A stretch of DNA of 64,000 nucleotides. Source: Phormidesmis priestleyi Ana (GTDB lineage: Bacteria > Cyanobacteriota > Cyanobacteriia > Phormidesmidales > Phormidesmidaceae). The stretch spans positions 1 to 64,000 of the forward strand of contig LJZR01000012.1 in NCBI GenBank assembly GCA_001314865.1, written 5' to 3'. Below the pieces are notes generated by a model. It did no database searches, was not told where the DNA came from, and saw only the letters and a program-made list of their open reading frames with translations. Shown here piece after piece: positions 15,582 through 48,325 of the stretch (position 1 is its first letter; every line of letters begins with the position of its first letter). A program made the translations under genes and the position numbers.

Positions 15582-18500
15582 ATGCTCTCTAAAATCCGAC
15601 GGTTCTCAGGTCTGAATCGCCTGCTGCGCAAAAGACTTGGCTGCATCATCCCGAGCCTAGTCGCCAGCTTAATTGTCGCCGCGCTCATTCAGCTGAATGT
15701 TTGGGTGCCACTAGAGCGTGCGGTCAATAATCAAATGATGGTCTGGCGAGGCACTCGCGACTGGGACAGCCGCATCGTCATGATCAGCATTGATAATAAA
15801 ACCCTTGATGCTTATGGACAGTTTCCAATTTCGCGAGAGTATTACGCAGACTTACTCCTCAAACTGATTCAAGAAGAGTCCAGCGTTGTTGCTTTTAATA
15901 TTTTGTTTGCCGATGGTTCAACCTCCAGCCGAGCTCCAGATAGCAGCGCCATTAATGCCAAACTCGCAAACGCAATAGCCACCTCAGGCAATGTCATCAT
16001 CGGACAAGCCTGGGATGAAGAGGGGTTAGCGCTGCTGCCGGTGCCCGTGCTGGCAGATACGGTCATCGCTGTTGGCCATCTACAGTTCGAGAGCGATCCT
16101 GACGGCATTGTTCGCCGTGTCCCCATCACCTGGGACAATGTTCCGACGCTAGGGGCCGCGACCGTTCAAGCGTACAGCCTACAAAAAGAGCTCATCAGCA
16201 TTCCGAGCAACCTTCAAACGCTACATATCAACTGGCCCAACTCTGCTACCCAGCTCACAACACTCAGCCTAGTCGATGTGCTAGGCGGCAACATCCCAGC
16301 TAAATATCTTAAAGACAAAATTATCATCGTCAGCTACGGTGCAACCGCTGGTCAGGTTCAGCTACGTACCCCTTTTGATCGTCTGCGGCCAGTGCCAGCG
16401 GGCTATCTGCACGCCGCCGTAATTGATACGCTACTCAAGCAAAACTGGCTGCGCCCAATTTCGAGCAACGTTATTATCCTGATCGTACTGATAGGCAGCC
16501 CCCTCTTTGGGGCGCTGCTGTATCGGCGAACGACCTTTGTGCAGCTGCTTATTGGCATTGGCGCATTCGTAGCATGGCTAGTCATTTGTATGGTGGCACT
16601 GTACTTTGACTATTTACTACCAGTAGTACCACCCCTGGCAACTTTGGGGCTGACAGGCGCCACGGTTATTACCCTTAGCCACCTACAGTCCAATGCCCTC
16701 CTACAGGTGCGATCGGCCTTTCTTAACACCATCAGCCACGAGATCCGCACCCCGCTAAACGCCATTGTCAACCTCTCAGAAATGCTGCAAGAGACCCAGC
16801 TAGACAACCGTCAAAGGGAATTTGCCGAAACACTCAATACTAGCTCTCAAACGCTACTAGCCCTTATTAACGATGTTCTTGACTTTTCTAAAATTGAGTC
16901 GGGACGGCTGACCATTGAGGCCTATCCGGTTAGGCTCAACGATACGCTTGAGCGCTGCCTTGAAATGCTCTCTCCCAAAGCCGCTGAGAAAGACTTAGAG
17001 CTGGTGTATTCTATTGCACCAGGAACGCCCACAGTGGTTATGAGCGACCCGGTACGGCTTCAGCAAATTTTGCTCAACCTGCTCAGCAACGCGATTAAAT
17101 TCACAGCAACAGGAGAGATTTCAGTTCAAGTCCAGGCGATTGTACTGGCGAGCAATCCGTCTCTATTTTCGCTTAAGCAGCGGCAAGTCATCCAGTGGAT
17201 GCGCAGTTTACAGTCTAACGCTCGGGCCAACACTCGGGCCAACGCTCGGGCCAACGCTCGGGCCGCTTCCGCGACTAAGCTTCAGCCACCACCTTCCGCC
17301 GACTATCGCATCGGCAACCTCTACGAAATTCGATTCGCCGTTCATGACACAGGCATTGGCATTCCGCCCGAGCGTATGGGCCAGCTCTTTAAGCCCTTTA
17401 GCCAGGTGAGTACAGCAACAACCCGCAAGTATGGCGGCACGGGCCTGGGGCTTTCTATTAGTAAACGACTCAGCGATCGCATGGGCGGTGATTTGTGGGT
17501 CAGAAGCTATCCTGGCCAGGGGAGTACGTTTTACTTTACAGTCCAAGCATACGAAGCCTTGCCTCACTTATCCCTTGGGGCAACCAGCAAAACAGGTCAC
17601 CAACCCACTTACCTCACAGGGCTCAACGGCGCCCGAATACTGCTGATTGACCGCAACATAACCCGCCGCTCTCAGCTGAATTGGGAGCTTCAGCTATTGG
17701 GCATTCGGCTAGCACAGGCCACCTCACTTTCTGAGGCGCTAGCGTTTGTGCAAAACGGCCCCACCTTCGACGGCCTTATTTTAGACGAAGCCATTCTCTA
17801 TAGCCCTGAAGAATGCGCTACCACCATCCAAACACTTCGCCAAACAGCTCGCAACGATTATCTGCCCGTCATATTGCTGAGTAAGCTACGGGCTCAAGCC
17901 CATCATCCCCCTATTGGTTCTCTACTCAGCCAAACAACCATCATCTGGAAACCGGTCAAGCAAGCAGCACTCTATCAGGCCCTGCGCTCCATTGAGGCCA
18001 TCTCGCTCTCACTTTCAGGCAGCAATAACAACAGCAACAGAGCCCCAGCGATTGAACCTGCCCTAAAGCGCACGCTAGACGGCCCTTTGGAACCCGATTC
18101 AAAGCAATCCCCAGAACCCTCTTCAGAGCGCTCTCCAGAACACTCTCCAGAGTGCTCTCCCGAATGCTCTCCCGAATGCTTTCCAGAAAGTGGTCATCTC
18201 GCTTTAGAACCTTCCCTAGAACCCAGTCATCCAGTTAGCCTCGACATTTTGATTGCCGAAGACAACCCGGTCAATCAGCGCGTGGCTCTGCGATTGCTAG
18301 AACTACTGGGCTACCAAGCCGATATCGCGGCATCCGGGCTAGAGGTTCTGACCGCGCTTAACCGTCAGCGCTATGACGTGATTCTAATGGATATGCGAAT
18401 GCCTGACCTCGACGGGATTGAGACCACTCGTCAAATTCGCCAAATGCCTCAGTACAAAGATATTTGGATTATCGCCATGACAGCCAATGCAATGGAGCGC

Positions 18501-18812: not shown

Positions 18813-21800
18813 ATGACTCGCAATCTATACGCGCTTTTAGTTGGCATTAATAAGTACGACGAGCAGTCGCACATTCCGGAACTAAAAGGCTGTCTGAACG
18901 ATATTCAGGGTATGCAAACCTATTTAGACAGCCGAATCGACAAAAACGAATTTGGCCTCCGGCTACAGATACTCACCAATGACCAGGCCACCCGGCGAGG
19001 CATTATCGATGGCTTTCGACAGCACTTAGCTCAAGCCACCGCTGAGGACATCGTGCTGTTTTACTATGCAGGCTATGGGAGCAAAGCAACTGCCCCCAAA
19101 GACTTTTGGCCAGTAACCCAGCTCACTCCCCACAGCCGTCAGCTAGAAACGCTGGTGTGCTATGACAGCCGCATGGATGATGCTCATTGGGATCTAGCGC
19201 GAATAGAGTTGGACCAGCTAATCGCTGAAGTCACACAGAACGGGACGCATATCACCGCCATCCTAGACAGTAGCTGTGCTAGCCCCACGGCGAGCCGTTC
19301 AACAGGAAACCCTACCGCAGCCCGTAGCCTAGCTCCAGACCAACGGCTACGATCAATCGATAGCTTTATTGTGTCACCTGAGGTCGCCCGAAATCGAGCC
19401 CTTCAGAACCAAGCCCTCCAGAACCAAGCCCTCCAGAACCAGGCCCTCCAGAACCAGGCCCTCCAAAGCAGAAACCGTAAGCATGCCCTAGCACCTACAC
19501 GGGCAAATATTCCGCGCCAAAACACCCTGCCCAAAACCGTTACCTTATCTGCCGCTTCAGGGCTAAGTTCAGCGCATGAGTACTTTGGGGCAGCCCAGCC
19601 CAAGGGCGCATTCTCACATTTTTTACAGCAGTCACTGGCTCAAACCAATGGCCCATTGAGCTGTTTGGATCTCCTCAGGCGTACGCAGGCACTTTTGCTC
19701 AGCAGCTTGCCGAGCCAGCAACCCGACATACAGGCATCACCAGGCGCCGGTTCCGCCAGTTTGGATCAGCCCTTAGATCAGCCCTTTTTAATGGGTGCGA
19801 TCGCCCCCTATCCGCCCTACTTCACCGTTAGCCATCATCCTGAAGATGGCTGGATTATTGACGGCGGCATCGCTCATGGCCTATCTGCACCCTTGAGCCA
19901 GGCCAGCCGTGAGACCACTCAGCTAGCCTTATTTCCTTACTACACCCAACCCGATCAAATGGAGCATGTGGCCGAGGCTATTGCCCAAGCCAACATCACC
20001 GGGGTATACGCCCGATTTAGCAAAATTGAAAGCGCTGGTCTAAAGGCCGCTAAAGCAACCGATATTTTCAAAGCGGTGGTCACTAAAACATCATTGCCCT
20101 TATGCAAAGTGCGGGTTGAAGGCGACACAGCTGGCGTTAAGCTGCTGACAGAGGCGATCGCGACCGCTAGCCTAAAACAGCAACCGGCCCAAGATGTGCA
20201 ACCCTTGGTTCACTATGTGCACTATGTGCAGCTCGTGAGCGCCAGCGAAGGCGCCGCGATTAAGGTCAGGGCTAGCGAAGGCGCCTATCAGATTATGCCG
20301 CCAGAATGCGATCGCCCCTGGATGCCCCCCATTTGCGGCTACAGCAACCAAAACGCAGACACCATTGTCAAAGCACTAGAGCATATCGCCCGATGGAAAA
20401 CCATTGTCGAGCTGGCCAACCCGGCCAACAGCCAGATTCAGGGCACCGTCAAGCTCAAAATTTATACCGGCGCAGAACCCGATAAAGAAGCCGCCACCGA
20501 AATCACCGACGCGCAGATCCGACTGACCTACCAACCCGCAGAGTCAGCGCTCACTGATTCAAAAAGCGCAGGCCAGCCCGCACCCTCATGGACGCCCGAA
20601 CGGTTCCGCATTAAGTTGCACAACACCAGCAACCAGCCGCTTTACTGTGCTCTCTTTTACATCAATGACCGATTCAGAGCCGCCTCTATCAAACCCGACA
20701 GCGAACATAGCATTGTGCAGCTACAGCCCAATCAAGAAATGTGGTTTGCCGACGGCGCAGCGCTCAACAGCAGCGTGCCCGACAGTCTGTGGCAGCAAGG
20801 CATCACCGAATGCCAGGAGAGCCTAAAACTGATTGCTTGCACTCACCCGTTTGACCCCCTGCTGCTGAACCTAAGCGAACTAGAGATTAACCAATCCACA
20901 AATCAGCCTACCGGCGATGCTAAACCGCCTGGCTCGCAAGCGGCAACGCAGCCTCCTCAAGGCGGCAGCTTGAACCGACTGATGTATCAAGTTCACAGTC
21001 GCAACCCCATCACAACCGAACCTGCTGCCGCCTACGACGACTGGATTACAAATCAAATTACCTTTACCTTTGTTCGTCCGCTGCTGCCCGTAGCGCTCAG
21101 CAACCAAACTCAAAACCGCAACAGCACTGTTATTGGCACCAATCGCAGCGCCGTCAGCCAAAACGAAGCGAGCTGGATAGTCAAGGCACATCCCCATCCC
21201 CAGTTACAGGCCAATGCTCAGCTAGTAACGGTTGCCCAGGCGATGCTGGGCTTAAGCCATTCAAATACGCGGAATGCTGACGAGCTGCCACTACCCCCAG
21301 GGCAAATGGCCCCTTTTCAGTTCACATCGGGTCGCACCAGTGACGCTGGACTTAGCGTCCTTGCGCTGAGTGAGATAAAGGCTGTAGACACAGTGACCGC
21401 AGAGCAACCACTACGGATTGAAACCAATGTCTCTTTAGGCGAGGGCCAGCAGCTACTGCCGGTTGCTTTTAACGGTGAATCTTACGTGCCCTTAGGATAT
21501 GGCACCACCCAAAACGGCACCACCCAAAACGGCACCACCCAAAACGGCACCACCCAAAACGGCACCACCCAAAACGGCACCACCCAAATAGTGATTAGCC
21601 GCCTGCTCAGAGCTGATCGGGCCCCATCAGCGGAACTTGTTACGCAACGTAGCGGCCATGTTGCCCTAGCGCCTATCTACATTTTCTTTCGACAGCTTGA
21701 TCAATCCACGCAGAGCGCCAATACTGTAGAGTCTCTTTCCCTTACTAGAAATCTTAAGAATAGAAATCCTAAAAATCAACAAAATAAACCAGAGGCAAGT

Positions 21801-22394
21801 ATAACAATGCCACCGCCGCCACCGCCTAAGCAGCCAAGCAGGCAAGTTCCAGAACCGATCCCGCCGAACTTAAGTCTGGCCGATCCCATGCAGCCCGAGC
21901 CTGCGCCGATTAAGCCCGAGCCGGAGCGTCTACCTGTGCAACCAGATTCTGTGCAACTAGAGTCCGTACAACCAGAGCCTGTACAGCTAGAACTTGTGCA
22001 ACCAGAGGCGATACAGCCAGAGTCTGTGCTGCAATCAGAGCCTATACAGCCAGAGTCTGTGCTGCAACCAGAGCCTATACAGCCACCTGTACAACCACTG
22101 CCTGTACAATCACTGCCTGTACAACCACTGCCTGTACAGCCAAACAACCAGCCGATAGATCCGAGTGAAGTTTATGCCCCGGCAAGGGAGCGATCGCCTC
22201 AATCAACCGTTTCCCCGATCATGGCAGCTTGGGTACTCGTGACTGGCACACTCACACTCATCGTGGCACTCGCTTGGATTCAATACTTTCAATCCGGTTT
22301 ACAACCCGCTCCTGACCCAGAAACCACTACTGACCCAAAAACCACTATTGAAGAGCCCATCTCACCCCCTAGCGCTCCCGACACAGACACATAA
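18813..22394 (+). CDS. Caspase-fold protein with substituted catalytic dyad (pseudo-orthocaspase)
   Basis: 1193 residues. The N-terminus (LYALLVGINKYDEQSHIPELKG CLND-type opening) is a peptidase C14/orthocaspase p20-like domain. The catalytic His is replaced: the usual GHGS reads AGYGS with Tyr88. The catalytic Cys is replaced: DxCHSG reads DSSCAS, with Ser154 in the Cys position. This matches the Y-S class of cyanobacterial pseudo-orthocaspases, so no protease activity is expected. The middle has NQALQ (15-bp units, near 195) and NGTTQ repeats (near 900). A Pro/Gln/Val-rich stretch (about 1010-1110) leads to a single TM (about 1135-1155) near the C-terminus. A role as membrane-anchored scaffold or sensor is inferred. 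It follows the CHASE2 kinase by about 205 bp. Confidence 0.85.
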   Translation: MTRNLYALLVGINKYDEQSHIPELKGCLNDIQGMQTYLDSRIDKNEFGLRLQILTNDQATRRGIIDGFRQHLAQATAEDIVLFYYAGYGSKATAPKDFWPVTQLTPHSRQLETLVCYDSRMDDAHWDLARIELDQLIAEVTQNGTHITAILDSSCASPTASRSTGNPTAARSLAPDQRLRSIDSFIVSPEVARNRALQNQALQNQALQNQALQNQALQSRNRKHALAPTRANIPRQNTLPKTVTLSAASGLSSAHEYFGAAQPKGAFSHFLQQSLAQTNGPLSCLDLLRRTQALLLSSLPSQQPDIQASPGAGSASLDQPLDQPFLMGAIAPYPPYFTVSHHPEDGWIIDGGIAHGLSAPLSQASRETTQLALFPYYTQPDQMEHVAEAIAQANITGVYARFSKIESAGLKAAKATDIFKAVVTKTSLPLCKVRVEGDTAGVKLLTEAIATASLKQQPAQDVQPLVHYVHYVQLVSASEGAAIKVRASEGAYQIMPPECDRPWMPPICGYSNQNADTIVKALEHIARWKTIVELANPANSQIQGTVKLKIYTGAEPDKEAATEITDAQIRLTYQPAESALTDSKSAGQPAPSWTPERFRIKLHNTSNQPLYCALFYINDRFRAASIKPDSEHSIVQLQPNQEMWFADGAALNSSVPDSLWQQGITECQESLKLIACTHPFDPLLLNLSELEINQSTNQPTGDAKPPGSQAATQPPQGGSLNRLMYQVHSRNPITTEPAAAYDDWITNQITFTFVRPLLPVALSNQTQNRNSTVIGTNRSAVSQNEASWIVKAHPHPQLQANAQLVTVAQAMLGLSHSNTRNADELPLPPGQMAPFQFTSGRTSDAGLSVLALSEIKAVDTVTAEQPLRIETNVSLGEGQQLLPVAFNGESYVPLGYGTTQNGTTQNGTTQNGTTQNGTTQNGTTQIVISRLLRADRAPSAELVTQRSGHVALAPIYIFFRQLDQSTQSANTVESLSLTRNLKNRNPKNQQNKPEASITMPPPPPPKQPSRQVPEPIPPNLSLADPMQPEPAPIKPEPERLPVQPDSVQLESVQPEPVQLELVQPEAIQPESVLQSEPIQPESVLQPEPIQPPVQPLPVQSLPVQPLPVQPNNQPIDPSEVYAPARERSPQSTVSPIMAAWVLVTGTLTLIVALAWIQYFQSGLQPAPDPETTTDPKTTIEEPISPPSAPDTDT

Positions 22395-30635: not shown

Positions 30636-31382
30636 ATGACACACTCAGCCGCACGATTGGGTATTGGGGGACCGGTGGGCAGTGGTAAAACGGCGCTGAT
30701 AGAGGGCATTGTGCCGATGCTGATGGCGCAGGGCATAGAAGTTGCAGTGGTCACCAACGACCTACTGACGACCGAAGATGCTGACCGGCTAAAGCGTAAG
30801 GGTTTTTTGCCCGCTGAGCGAGTGATAGGAGTTGAAACAGGCAGCTGCCCGCACACGGCGATTCGGGAAGATCCGACGATGAATCAGCTGGCCGTGCAGG
30901 ACTTGGAGCTATTGTTTCCGCAGCTTGACCTGATTTTAATAGAGAGTGGGGGCGATAACCTGGCCTCTACTTTTAGCTATGAGTTGGTTGATGCCTACAT
31001 GTTTGTGATTGATGTGGGCGCAGGTGATGATATTCCGAGAAAAAACGGGCCAGGATTTGTTCAATCTGACCTGGCGGTGGTGAATAAAATTGATATTGCG
31101 CCCTATGTGGGTGCCGATTTGGGCCTGATGCGGCAGCAGGCGACGCAGTACCGACAGGGCAAACCGGTGGTGTATACCAACTGTAAAACCGCAGAAGGGC
31201 TTGATGAAGTTGTGGCGTTTATTCAAGAGACGCTGCTATTTGGCCGGCAGATGGGCCAGCCGTCCACTCAGCCATCCGCTCAACCGCCCTCAACTCAGCA
31301 GACCTCAACTCAGCAGACCTCAACTCAGCAGCCCGCAGGTCAGCAGCCCGCAACCGAAAACCTGATTGGAAGCTATTCGTGA
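30636..31382 (+). CDS. ureG: Urease accessory GTPase UreG
   Basis: 248 residues. The Walker [15 protein letters not shown], switch regions [11 protein letters not shown] and [19 protein letters not shown], and [16 protein letters not shown] are standard for UreG, the GTPase that drives nickel insertion into urease. The last 45 residues are low complexity ([16 protein letters not shown], made of 15-bp repeats) and are absent from usual UreG (about 205 residues). The stop overlaps the GTG of ureD by 4 bp. Confidence 0.95.
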
Positions 31383-35933: not shown

Positions 35934-37679
35934 TTGGCTAAGGAATCACTATCTCAAGAATCTCCAAAGGATAAACCACTTCCTTCCCCTTCAACTGAAA
36001 AAAATAGTGGCGAGCTTGAAGGGAATGAACTTGAAGGAAATGAGCTTGAGGGAAATGAACTTGAGGAAAAACCGACAACCTATGTCACTCGTCGTAAAAT
36101 CATCAGTGCAGCGCTGCTCGCGGGTAGTGGAGCTGTCCTCTTTGGGGTGCTTGGTCGATTATTGAATCCGCCAGTACCTGCCTCATTCTCTGATGAGAAT
36201 GCAGGTGCGAATGGGGATGAAAATGCAATGCCTAATGGCAGCACTACCGATGAACCGATCAGCGTTGGGATTTTGCACGCCCTTTCTGGTGATATGGCGA
36301 TCAGCGAAGCCGTTTTGGTCGATGCCGAGCTATTGGCCATTGCAGAAATTAACGCGAACGGCGGGGTGTTAGGGCGACAGCTTGTTGCAGTGACAGAAGA
36401 CAGCGCTTCCGACAGTCCAACATATGCCGAGAAAGCCGAAAAGCTCATTAACCAAGCGCAGGTATCTGTCATTTTTGGCGGTGGAACCTCGTCTAGCCGT
36501 AAAGCGGTAGTCCCTGTGATTGAAAGCAACGATCATATGCTTTGGTATCCTTGGCCGCATGAAGGCCAAGAATGTTCTCAAAACATTTTTTACACTGGCA
36601 CCACGCCAAACCAAAACATTGAGTTTGCTGTCAATTGGCTTTTAGAAACCAAAGGTCAAGAGAGTCAGCGCCAGGCTGAGGAGCAATCGGCCAATCAGAC
36701 TGATGACCAGATTGACGACCTATCCGAAAATCAGACCGAAAATCAGGCCGAAAATCAGGCCGAAAATCAGGCCGAAGTCCAAACCGAAGAACAATCCGAA
36801 AGCCAGGCTGACGACCCATCCGAAAATCAGACTGACGACCCATCCGAAAATCAGACTGAAGACCCGGCAGAAAACCAATCCGAAAGCCAGCCATTTTTCC
36901 TCATCGGCTCTGATGACATTTTTTTACAAACGGTGAGCAGCCTCCTTCAAACGCAGCTCGGCAGCCCAGAAAAAGCATCAGAAAACAACCCTTCAGAGAA
37001 CGCACCAGCAGGCGTCCTGACAGGGGAAGAAAAGGTATCGTCAACCACCGATATGGCGGCGCTAATCACCACAATTCAGCAAGCGATGCCTGAAGGTGGC
37101 ATTATTTTTAGCGGCTTAAATGGGGATAGCAACATAGCCTTTTTTAGGCAGCTAGCCAGCGATGGGCTAGGGCCAGATAATTATCCCGTAATGTCGGTCA
37201 GCCTAGCCGAAGAGGAGGTTCGTCAGATCGGCCCTGAGAATTTAGCAGGGCATTATGCCGTATGGCCGTATTTTCAAACGGTTGAGACCCAGAGCAATCA
37301 AAAGTGGATCGCAGCCTTCAAGGCTAAATATGGGGAAGAGCGGGTGCTGAGCGCGCCTATGGCATCGGCATACACCATGGTTCATTTATGGGCACAGGCA
37401 GTAGAAAAAGCGGATACAACCGATATTAGGGCAGTCCGTGAAGCGGCGTATGGACTGACTTTTGAGGCACCTGAGGGCCGCGTAACGATGCAGCCTAGCC
37501 ATCATATGGCGCACACGATGCGCATTGGTAAAGTGCGTGAAGATGGCCTGTTTGATATTGTCTTAGAAACCGATGCGCCCGTGGAGCCGTCGCCTTGGAA
37601 TCAGGCGTTGCCGCAGGGCGCAGGATATTTGTGTGATTGGTCTGACCCGGCTAAAGGCGGTCAGTACAAAGCGACCTAG
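35934..37679 (+). CDS. Urea/amide-type substrate-binding protein with acidic repeat insertion
   Basis: 581 residues from a TTG start preceded by GAGGAC. A 50-residue acidic leader (ELEGNELEGNELE repeats) precedes a TAT-like TRRKIISAALLAG segment (around 52-75). The mature part resembles the UrtA/FmdD/AmiC family: ISVGILHALSGDMAISEAV, FGGGTSSSRKAVVPV, CSQNIFYTGTTPNQN, GHYAVWPYFQTVETQSNQKW, EAPEGRVTMQPSHHMAHTMRIG. An acidic repeat region (about residues 238-320, units such as ENQA and DDPSENQT) is inserted between a helix and the strand FFLIGSDD. It may be a periplasmic amide or urea binder or a sensor. It follows the first urease cluster, well away from urtA. Confidence 0.85.
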   Translation: MAKESLSQESPKDKPLPSPSTEKNSGELEGNELEGNELEGNELEEKPTTYVTRRKIISAALLAGSGAVLFGVLGRLLNPPVPASFSDENAGANGDENAMPNGSTTDEPISVGILHALSGDMAISEAVLVDAELLAIAEINANGGVLGRQLVAVTEDSASDSPTYAEKAEKLINQAQVSVIFGGGTSSSRKAVVPVIESNDHMLWYPWPHEGQECSQNIFYTGTTPNQNIEFAVNWLLETKGQESQRQAEEQSANQTDDQIDDLSENQTENQAENQAENQAEVQTEEQSESQADDPSENQTDDPSENQTEDPAENQSESQPFFLIGSDDIFLQTVSSLLQTQLGSPEKASENNPSENAPAGVLTGEEKVSSTTDMAALITTIQQAMPEGGIIFSGLNGDSNIAFFRQLASDGLGPDNYPVMSVSLAEEEVRQIGPENLAGHYAVWPYFQTVETQSNQKWIAAFKAKYGEERVLSAPMASAYTMVHLWAQAVEKADTTDIRAVREAAYGLTFEAPEGRVTMQPSHHMAHTMRIGKVREDGLFDIVLETDAPVEPSPWNQALPQGAGYLCDWSDPAKGGQYKAT

Positions 37680-48197: not shown

Positions 48198-48325
48198 AGA
48201 ACATGCCGAAAGGACATGCCGAAAGAACATGCCGAAAGAACATGCCGAAAGAACATGCCGAAAGAACATGCCGAAAGAACATGCCGAAAGAACATGCCGA
48301 AAGAACATGCCGAAAGAACATATCA
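48198..48325. repeat. 13-bp tandem repeat array
   Basis: The unit AAAGAACATGCCG is repeated about nine to ten times almost without change; the first copy has one substitution and the last is partial. The period (13) is not a multiple of three, so the open frames across it cycle through three phases and are not coding. There are no spacers between units, so this is not a CRISPR. Confidence 0.95.

Follow-up and report, generated by a model that had tools for sequence, protein, structure and literature searches.

A putative membrane-tethered pseudo-caspase with separately lost catalytic residues in the cyanobacterium Phormidesmis priestleyi

A long open reading frame in the 5.9-Mb cyanobacterial genome of Phormidesmis priestleyi Ana encodes a caspase-like protein in which Tyr stands where the catalytic His is expected. 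Does this protein belong to the inactive caspase relatives already known in cyanobacteria, is its gene decaying, or has the protein taken on a role other than cutting? The gene lies in the window, by which we mean the whole 64,000-nt stretch of DNA that we analyzed, part of contig G000:C108. We collected its features in Table 1. The caspase-type N-terminal domain reported in a preliminary description of this DNA was borne out: residues 6-308 match Peptidase_C14 (PF00656) at 50.5 bits, compared to a cutoff of 21.4, which places the protein in the C14 superfamily, and the predicted fold is metacaspase-like. The family profile aligns along metacaspase-1 (E 1.8e-22). In an AlphaFold2 model of the domain, built on an alignment of viral-contig caspases at 20-28% identity, the core reached a pLDDT of about 85-95, and Foldseek matched this model to metacaspase 9 (E 1e-13, probability 1.00) with large rmsd values. 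A single-sequence fold of residues 1-340 was discarded (pLDDT 42).

The remainder of the protein is less conventional. Residues 336-905 have no Pfam family. The preliminary description called the middle repeat-rich, and two short 15-bp arrays are indeed present; they flank a long, nonrepetitive, conserved region rather than filling it. The Pro/Gln/Val stalk and the C-terminal transmembrane (TM) helix that it described are both there, the stalk as a repeat region preceding the helix. Judging from the charges on either side of the TM helix and from the absence of a signal peptide, the N-terminus would be cytoplasmic.

Table 1. Position and basis of each feature of the pseudo-caspase gene, numbered along the window
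Feature	Coordinates	Strand	Basis
Pseudo-caspase gene, 1193 aa	18813..22394	+	Single open frame; relatives with intact sites
Caspase/metacaspase-fold domain (p20 + p10-like half), residues 1-335	18813..19817	+	Pfam PF00656, family profile, AlphaFold2/Foldseek
Tyr88 (TAT) at catalytic-His position, motif AGYGS	19074..19076	+	Ungapped alignment; His in 26/26 aligned relatives
DSSCAS, residues 152-157; Ser154 or Cys155 at nucleophile position	19266..19283	+	Choice depends on alignment
QNQAL x4-5, 15-bp tandem array, in p20/p10-like linker	19397..19465	+	TRF
Conserved middle region, residues 336-905	19818..21527	+	~37-50% identity to relatives in local matches
TTQNG x6, 15-bp tandem array, near hydrolase start of relatives	21501..21588	+	TRF, pairwise alignment
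Pro/Gln/Val low-complexity stalk, tandem-repeat derived, where relatives have alpha/beta-hydrolase	21933..22142	+	TRF; no hydrolase match
C-terminal TM helix, residues 1136-1154	22218..22274	+	Hydropathy scan, mean Kyte-Doolittle 2.24

By sequence, the protein is a member of a fusion family consisting of a caspase domain, a middle region of ~570 aa, and an alpha/beta-hydrolase, often followed by a TM helix. Within the genus, our search yielded a single true relative, G006:C220, which is also the nearest (44.5-50% identity over residues 1-905). It carries an intact GHG/DCCHSG site (YYAGHGAQ and LDCCHSG) and a PF24096/PGAP1-like alpha/beta-hydrolase whose nucleophile elbow reads AHSMGG, then a C-terminal TM helix. 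Counting the window's own genome, relatives were found in 13 of 65 family genomes and 30 of 390 sampled class genomes. Others are on plasmids of Nostoc (pNLP1), Anabaena (pANA01 of Anabaena 90), Rhizobium (pRlX4), and Deinococcus, where the fusion proteins are annotated merely as "caspase family protein." These fusions have the caspase domain and middle module in common with the window protein, and many also end in a TM helix; all that are readable keep the His-Cys (H-C) dyad, and most of the complete ones keep the hydrolase, whereas the window protein has neither. Both positions could be read in 35 family members (26 from the alignment, 4 others, and 5 on plasmids), and every one of these has kept His and Cys; the window protein is the only exception seen.

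The family varies in other ways. Genomes G043 and G036 have part of the middle module (residues about 513-757) with no caspase domain attached; frames of 441-447 aa at L032 and L033 match the same residues with no caspase domain and no Pfam family above the cutoff. In two giant members (L149:3491-12087 and L073, about 3000 aa), the hydrolase is followed by another caspase domain. On plasmids, copies of the fusion (L148, L150, L151, and L152) are close to genes for CHAT-domain proteins, other caspases, or proteases and protease inhibitors. Viral contigs in IMG/VR (L102, L106, L107, L110, L112, L119, L121, L122, and L125) likewise carry genes for proteins of the caspase fold in which the H-C motifs are intact and the C-terminus is hydrophobic and TM-like. 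A Helicobacter match from a contig scan was spurious, as the QNQAL repeat alone matched.

Judged from an alignment that is ungapped and unambiguous at Tyr88, the loss of the catalytic His is not in doubt. The motifs AGYGS and DSSCAS are present as the preliminary description gave them, and its statement that Tyr and Ser replace the dyad is certain for Tyr; the Ser depends on the alignment. The catalytic-Cys region reads LDSSCASPT. Read without gaps, the sequence sets Ser154 opposite the catalytic Cys (Y-S), whereas MAFFT, in two alignments, and the HMM treat Ser153 as an insertion and put Cys155 in that place. The codons at this loop are GAC AGT AGC TGT in the window gene and GAC TGC TGT in G006:C220, and the TGT of Cys155 is the same as the codon of the relative's catalytic Cys. 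Because the profile alignments and the codon identity favor a one-codon insertion that keeps Cys155 in the nucleophile column, Y-C may be a better name than Y-S. The structure prediction proposed in the preliminary description recovered the metacaspase-like fold; the active-site loop, at a pLDDT of about 55, does not discriminate between Ser154 and Cys155. With Tyr88 and a Cys position that varies with the alignment, the protein lacks the His-Cys dyad of active orthocaspases and metacaspases. In addition, the CHSG that relatives have at this loop has become CASP, and the family's conserved Cys248 is lost, while Cys27, Asp30, Asp152, and Glu256 are kept. We take Cys27, Asp30, and Asp152 to correspond to S1-pocket positions of TbMCA2, with a tentative mapping of Asp211 to Asp152.

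Among the inactive caspase relatives already known in cyanobacteria, YS and YN proteins form two clades, and the YS group has an N-terminal extension of ~30 aa; S1-pocket positions have been described for TbMCA2 in the same study (PMC6426788). The YS, YN, and YG pseudo-orthocaspases, including Synechocystis SyOC, likewise have Tyr for the catalytic His and keep the S1-pocket acids (PMC6426788, PMC7889975). Unlike SyOC-type proteins, the window protein starts MTRNLYALLVGI, directly at the first strand and without the ~30-aa TAT-like extension, and its middle and C-terminus are different. In a tree in which SyOC-like proteins represented the published YS clade, its partner was an H-C relative, with a support of 0.996, and the SyOC-like Y-G proteins branched elsewhere. 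The preliminary description read the protein as a Y-S pseudo-orthocaspase of the kind known from cyanobacteria. Because its closest relatives are all H-C, one of them groups with it so firmly, and the SyOC-like protein falls elsewhere, we instead conclude from these comparisons that the dyad is lost on this protein's lineage alone, apart from the classic YS pseudo-orthocaspases. We are all but sure of this identity and of the separate loss. Two further pseudo-caspases are encoded in the same genome, a SyOC-like Y-G protein whose start is TAT-like (L071:8192-10552, contig C68) and a Y-N pseudo-orthocaspase (L004, contig C99), which makes three unlike ones in all. Two more specific assignments were rejected: the EACC1-associated caspase model (NF047832) scores 30.9 bits compared to a cutoff of 140, and the PADLOC model "caspase" does not point to a specific defense system because it matches the SyOC-like protein just as it does the window protein and the window protein's relative.

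The preliminary description overlooked the loss of a second enzyme. In most complete relatives, a hydrolase follows the middle module and precedes the TM helix; the window protein has no PF24096 match, and this place is taken by sequence made of 15-bp and 33-bp tandem repeats (TRF). PF24096 is also missing from two short members (L078 and L029), and in L023, L026, L030, and L072 the hydrolase nucleophile Ser is replaced (by Glu in three, by Gly in one) with the caspase dyad intact. A search for the lost hydrolase as a separate gene in the genome returned one weak match below the cutoff, and similar matches occur in every genome of the genus. Tandem arrays are found at 11 per 10 kb in the window, compared to 0-9 at same-genus loci. 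Given that the window is unusually rich in arrays, a genome-wide tendency may account for the stalk as well as for the QNQAL and TTQNG arrays. Across the 64 kb, TRF reported 72 rows, mostly of 10-18 bp and more than at most same-genus loci (for example, 17217-17264, 18111-18188, 31288-31354, 36724-36865, and 48198-48321); several arrays are in frame, including RANA repeats in the kinase gene and STQQT in a ureG-like gene.

These losses raise the possibility that the gene is a decaying relic, with both activities dispensable, the sequence drifting, and the loss too recent for the frame to have been broken. The domain loss and the repeat expansions fit this explanation, as does the erosion of conserved sites: 18 of 77 near-invariant sites in the caspase domain (residues 1-335) are changed, compared to 0-5 in each of 22 relatives (pooled, 51 of 1588; Fisher p 3e-10). 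The changes are enriched around the active site, in a hand-chosen zone (10/23 vs 8/54, p 0.016), which, like the erosion of the domain itself, we count in favor of the pseudoenzyme reading given below. The terminal branch is also long (0.70 overall vs 0.26 for the nearest relative; 0.651 vs 0.149 for the caspase domain and 0.691 vs 0.317 for the middle region). Against decay, the gene has 1193 codons without a stop or frameshift; when we simulated neutral drift from the relative's sequence, 15% of runs were free of stops at 10% amino acid change, 5% at 20%, and none at 40%. Conserved sites differ less often than variable ones (22% vs 55%), changes at near-invariant sites of the middle region (11 of 78) are inside the family range of 1-19, and the S1-pocket residues and the TM helix are kept. 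The gene is known from one genome of the species, and synonymous sites are saturated in the dN/dS comparison with the nearest relative. Because the frame is open and conserved sites are less changed, maintenance is favored, and the gene is likely to be under selection; much of the branch that carries this purifying signal may predate inactivation. Overall, we consider decay improbable.

An altered protease is less probable still. Cys155 could be a retained nucleophile shifted by one residue and helped by another residue such as His107, which sits in a four-residue insertion absent from all 26 relatives. The alignments and the codon that tie Cys155 to the catalytic Cys agree with this, and the pseudo-variants listed for cyanobacteria include YC (PMC8283722); however, the His is lost from an ungapped column, CHSG and Cys248 are gone, and the loop carrying His107 has a pLDDT below 50. 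On the residues present, the protein very probably lacks caspase-type proteolysis, and "non-proteolytic," as the preliminary description put it, is supported with that qualification.

The preliminary description also linked the protein to neighboring signaling genes. One block of genes conserved in the genus comprises FecR, CHASE2 kinase, SPOR, permease, and solute-binding genes, and another comprises Thf1, CpeT, STAS, hemF, Mrp, and FtsW; in relatives the two occupy separate contigs or have about 900 kb between them, and the window gene is at their junction. Within the few kb examined around the caspase genes of relatives, neither the CHASE2/FecR block nor the Thf1 block was found. It is very unlikely that the protein is coupled, as a scaffold or sensor, to the CHASE2 histidine kinase and the FecR protein, since the gene's position 205 bp downstream of the kinase gene on the same strand is set against a block that is conserved in the genus without it, a junction of otherwise unlinked blocks, no such block near any relative's caspase gene, and a promoter and terminator scan that was below shuffled expectation and gave no informative call.

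We consider it somewhat probable that the window protein is a lineage-specific, membrane-tethered pseudoenzyme, derived from the caspase-middle-alpha/beta-hydrolase (-TM) fusion family, that acts by binding. With both enzyme sites lost and the frame kept, binding is a more probable function than cutting. On this lineage, Tyr has replaced the catalytic His, the Cys loop has been remodeled, with a Ser inserted on the favored alignment and CHSG turned into CASP, and a repeat-rich linker has taken the place of the hydrolase domain. The caspase fold, the S1-pocket positions, the middle module, and the TM anchor have been retained. Held at the cytoplasmic face of the membrane, where the predicted helix supports the anchoring proposed in the preliminary description, the protein might serve as a decoy, a dominant-negative form, or a scaffold by binding peptides or partner proteins that its active relatives engage or cleave. 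This mechanism is tentative. The search for an active family copy elsewhere in the window's genome found none, which we counted against the pseudoenzyme reading as a whole.

The membrane-tethered binding role is proposed by analogy with inactive caspase domains of VMAP conflict systems (PMC7159879). Kaur and colleagues reported that in these systems a caspase domain always has an alpha/beta-hydrolase gene as its neighbor; of the caspase domains at effector positions, they found about 70% to be inactive and suggested a dominant-negative or peptide-binding role for them (PMC7159879). The MoxR-vWA/VMAP systems have the same pairing of caspase and alpha/beta-hydrolase, with inactive versions at effector positions, but as neighboring genes or vWA fusions, whereas the window protein's family joins the two in one polypeptide. 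TbMCA4 and cFLIP(L) are catalytically substituted caspase-fold regulators from eukaryotes (cited in PMC6426788 and PMC7586951), and we name them as an analogy. In its widest form, which we regard as rather doubtful, our proposal is that a mobile fusion of protease and esterase, which may have been an effector in conflict or cell death, became a membrane-held decoy in one lineage, losing both catalytic functions and keeping its substrate-binding pocket and partner-binding module.

The family to which the window protein belongs is a little-described protease-hydrolase fusion that is also found on plasmids, and loss can affect either of its active sites, that of the caspase in the window protein and the hydrolase nucleophile in four others. 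The YS and the YN pseudo-orthocaspases each make up a separate broad clade, so that a closely matched active form is not at hand for them. The intact relative from the same genus makes the role of a caspase-like protein after catalysis testable on a matched pair and, if the decoy reading is true, the two proteins would be a natural before-and-after pair.
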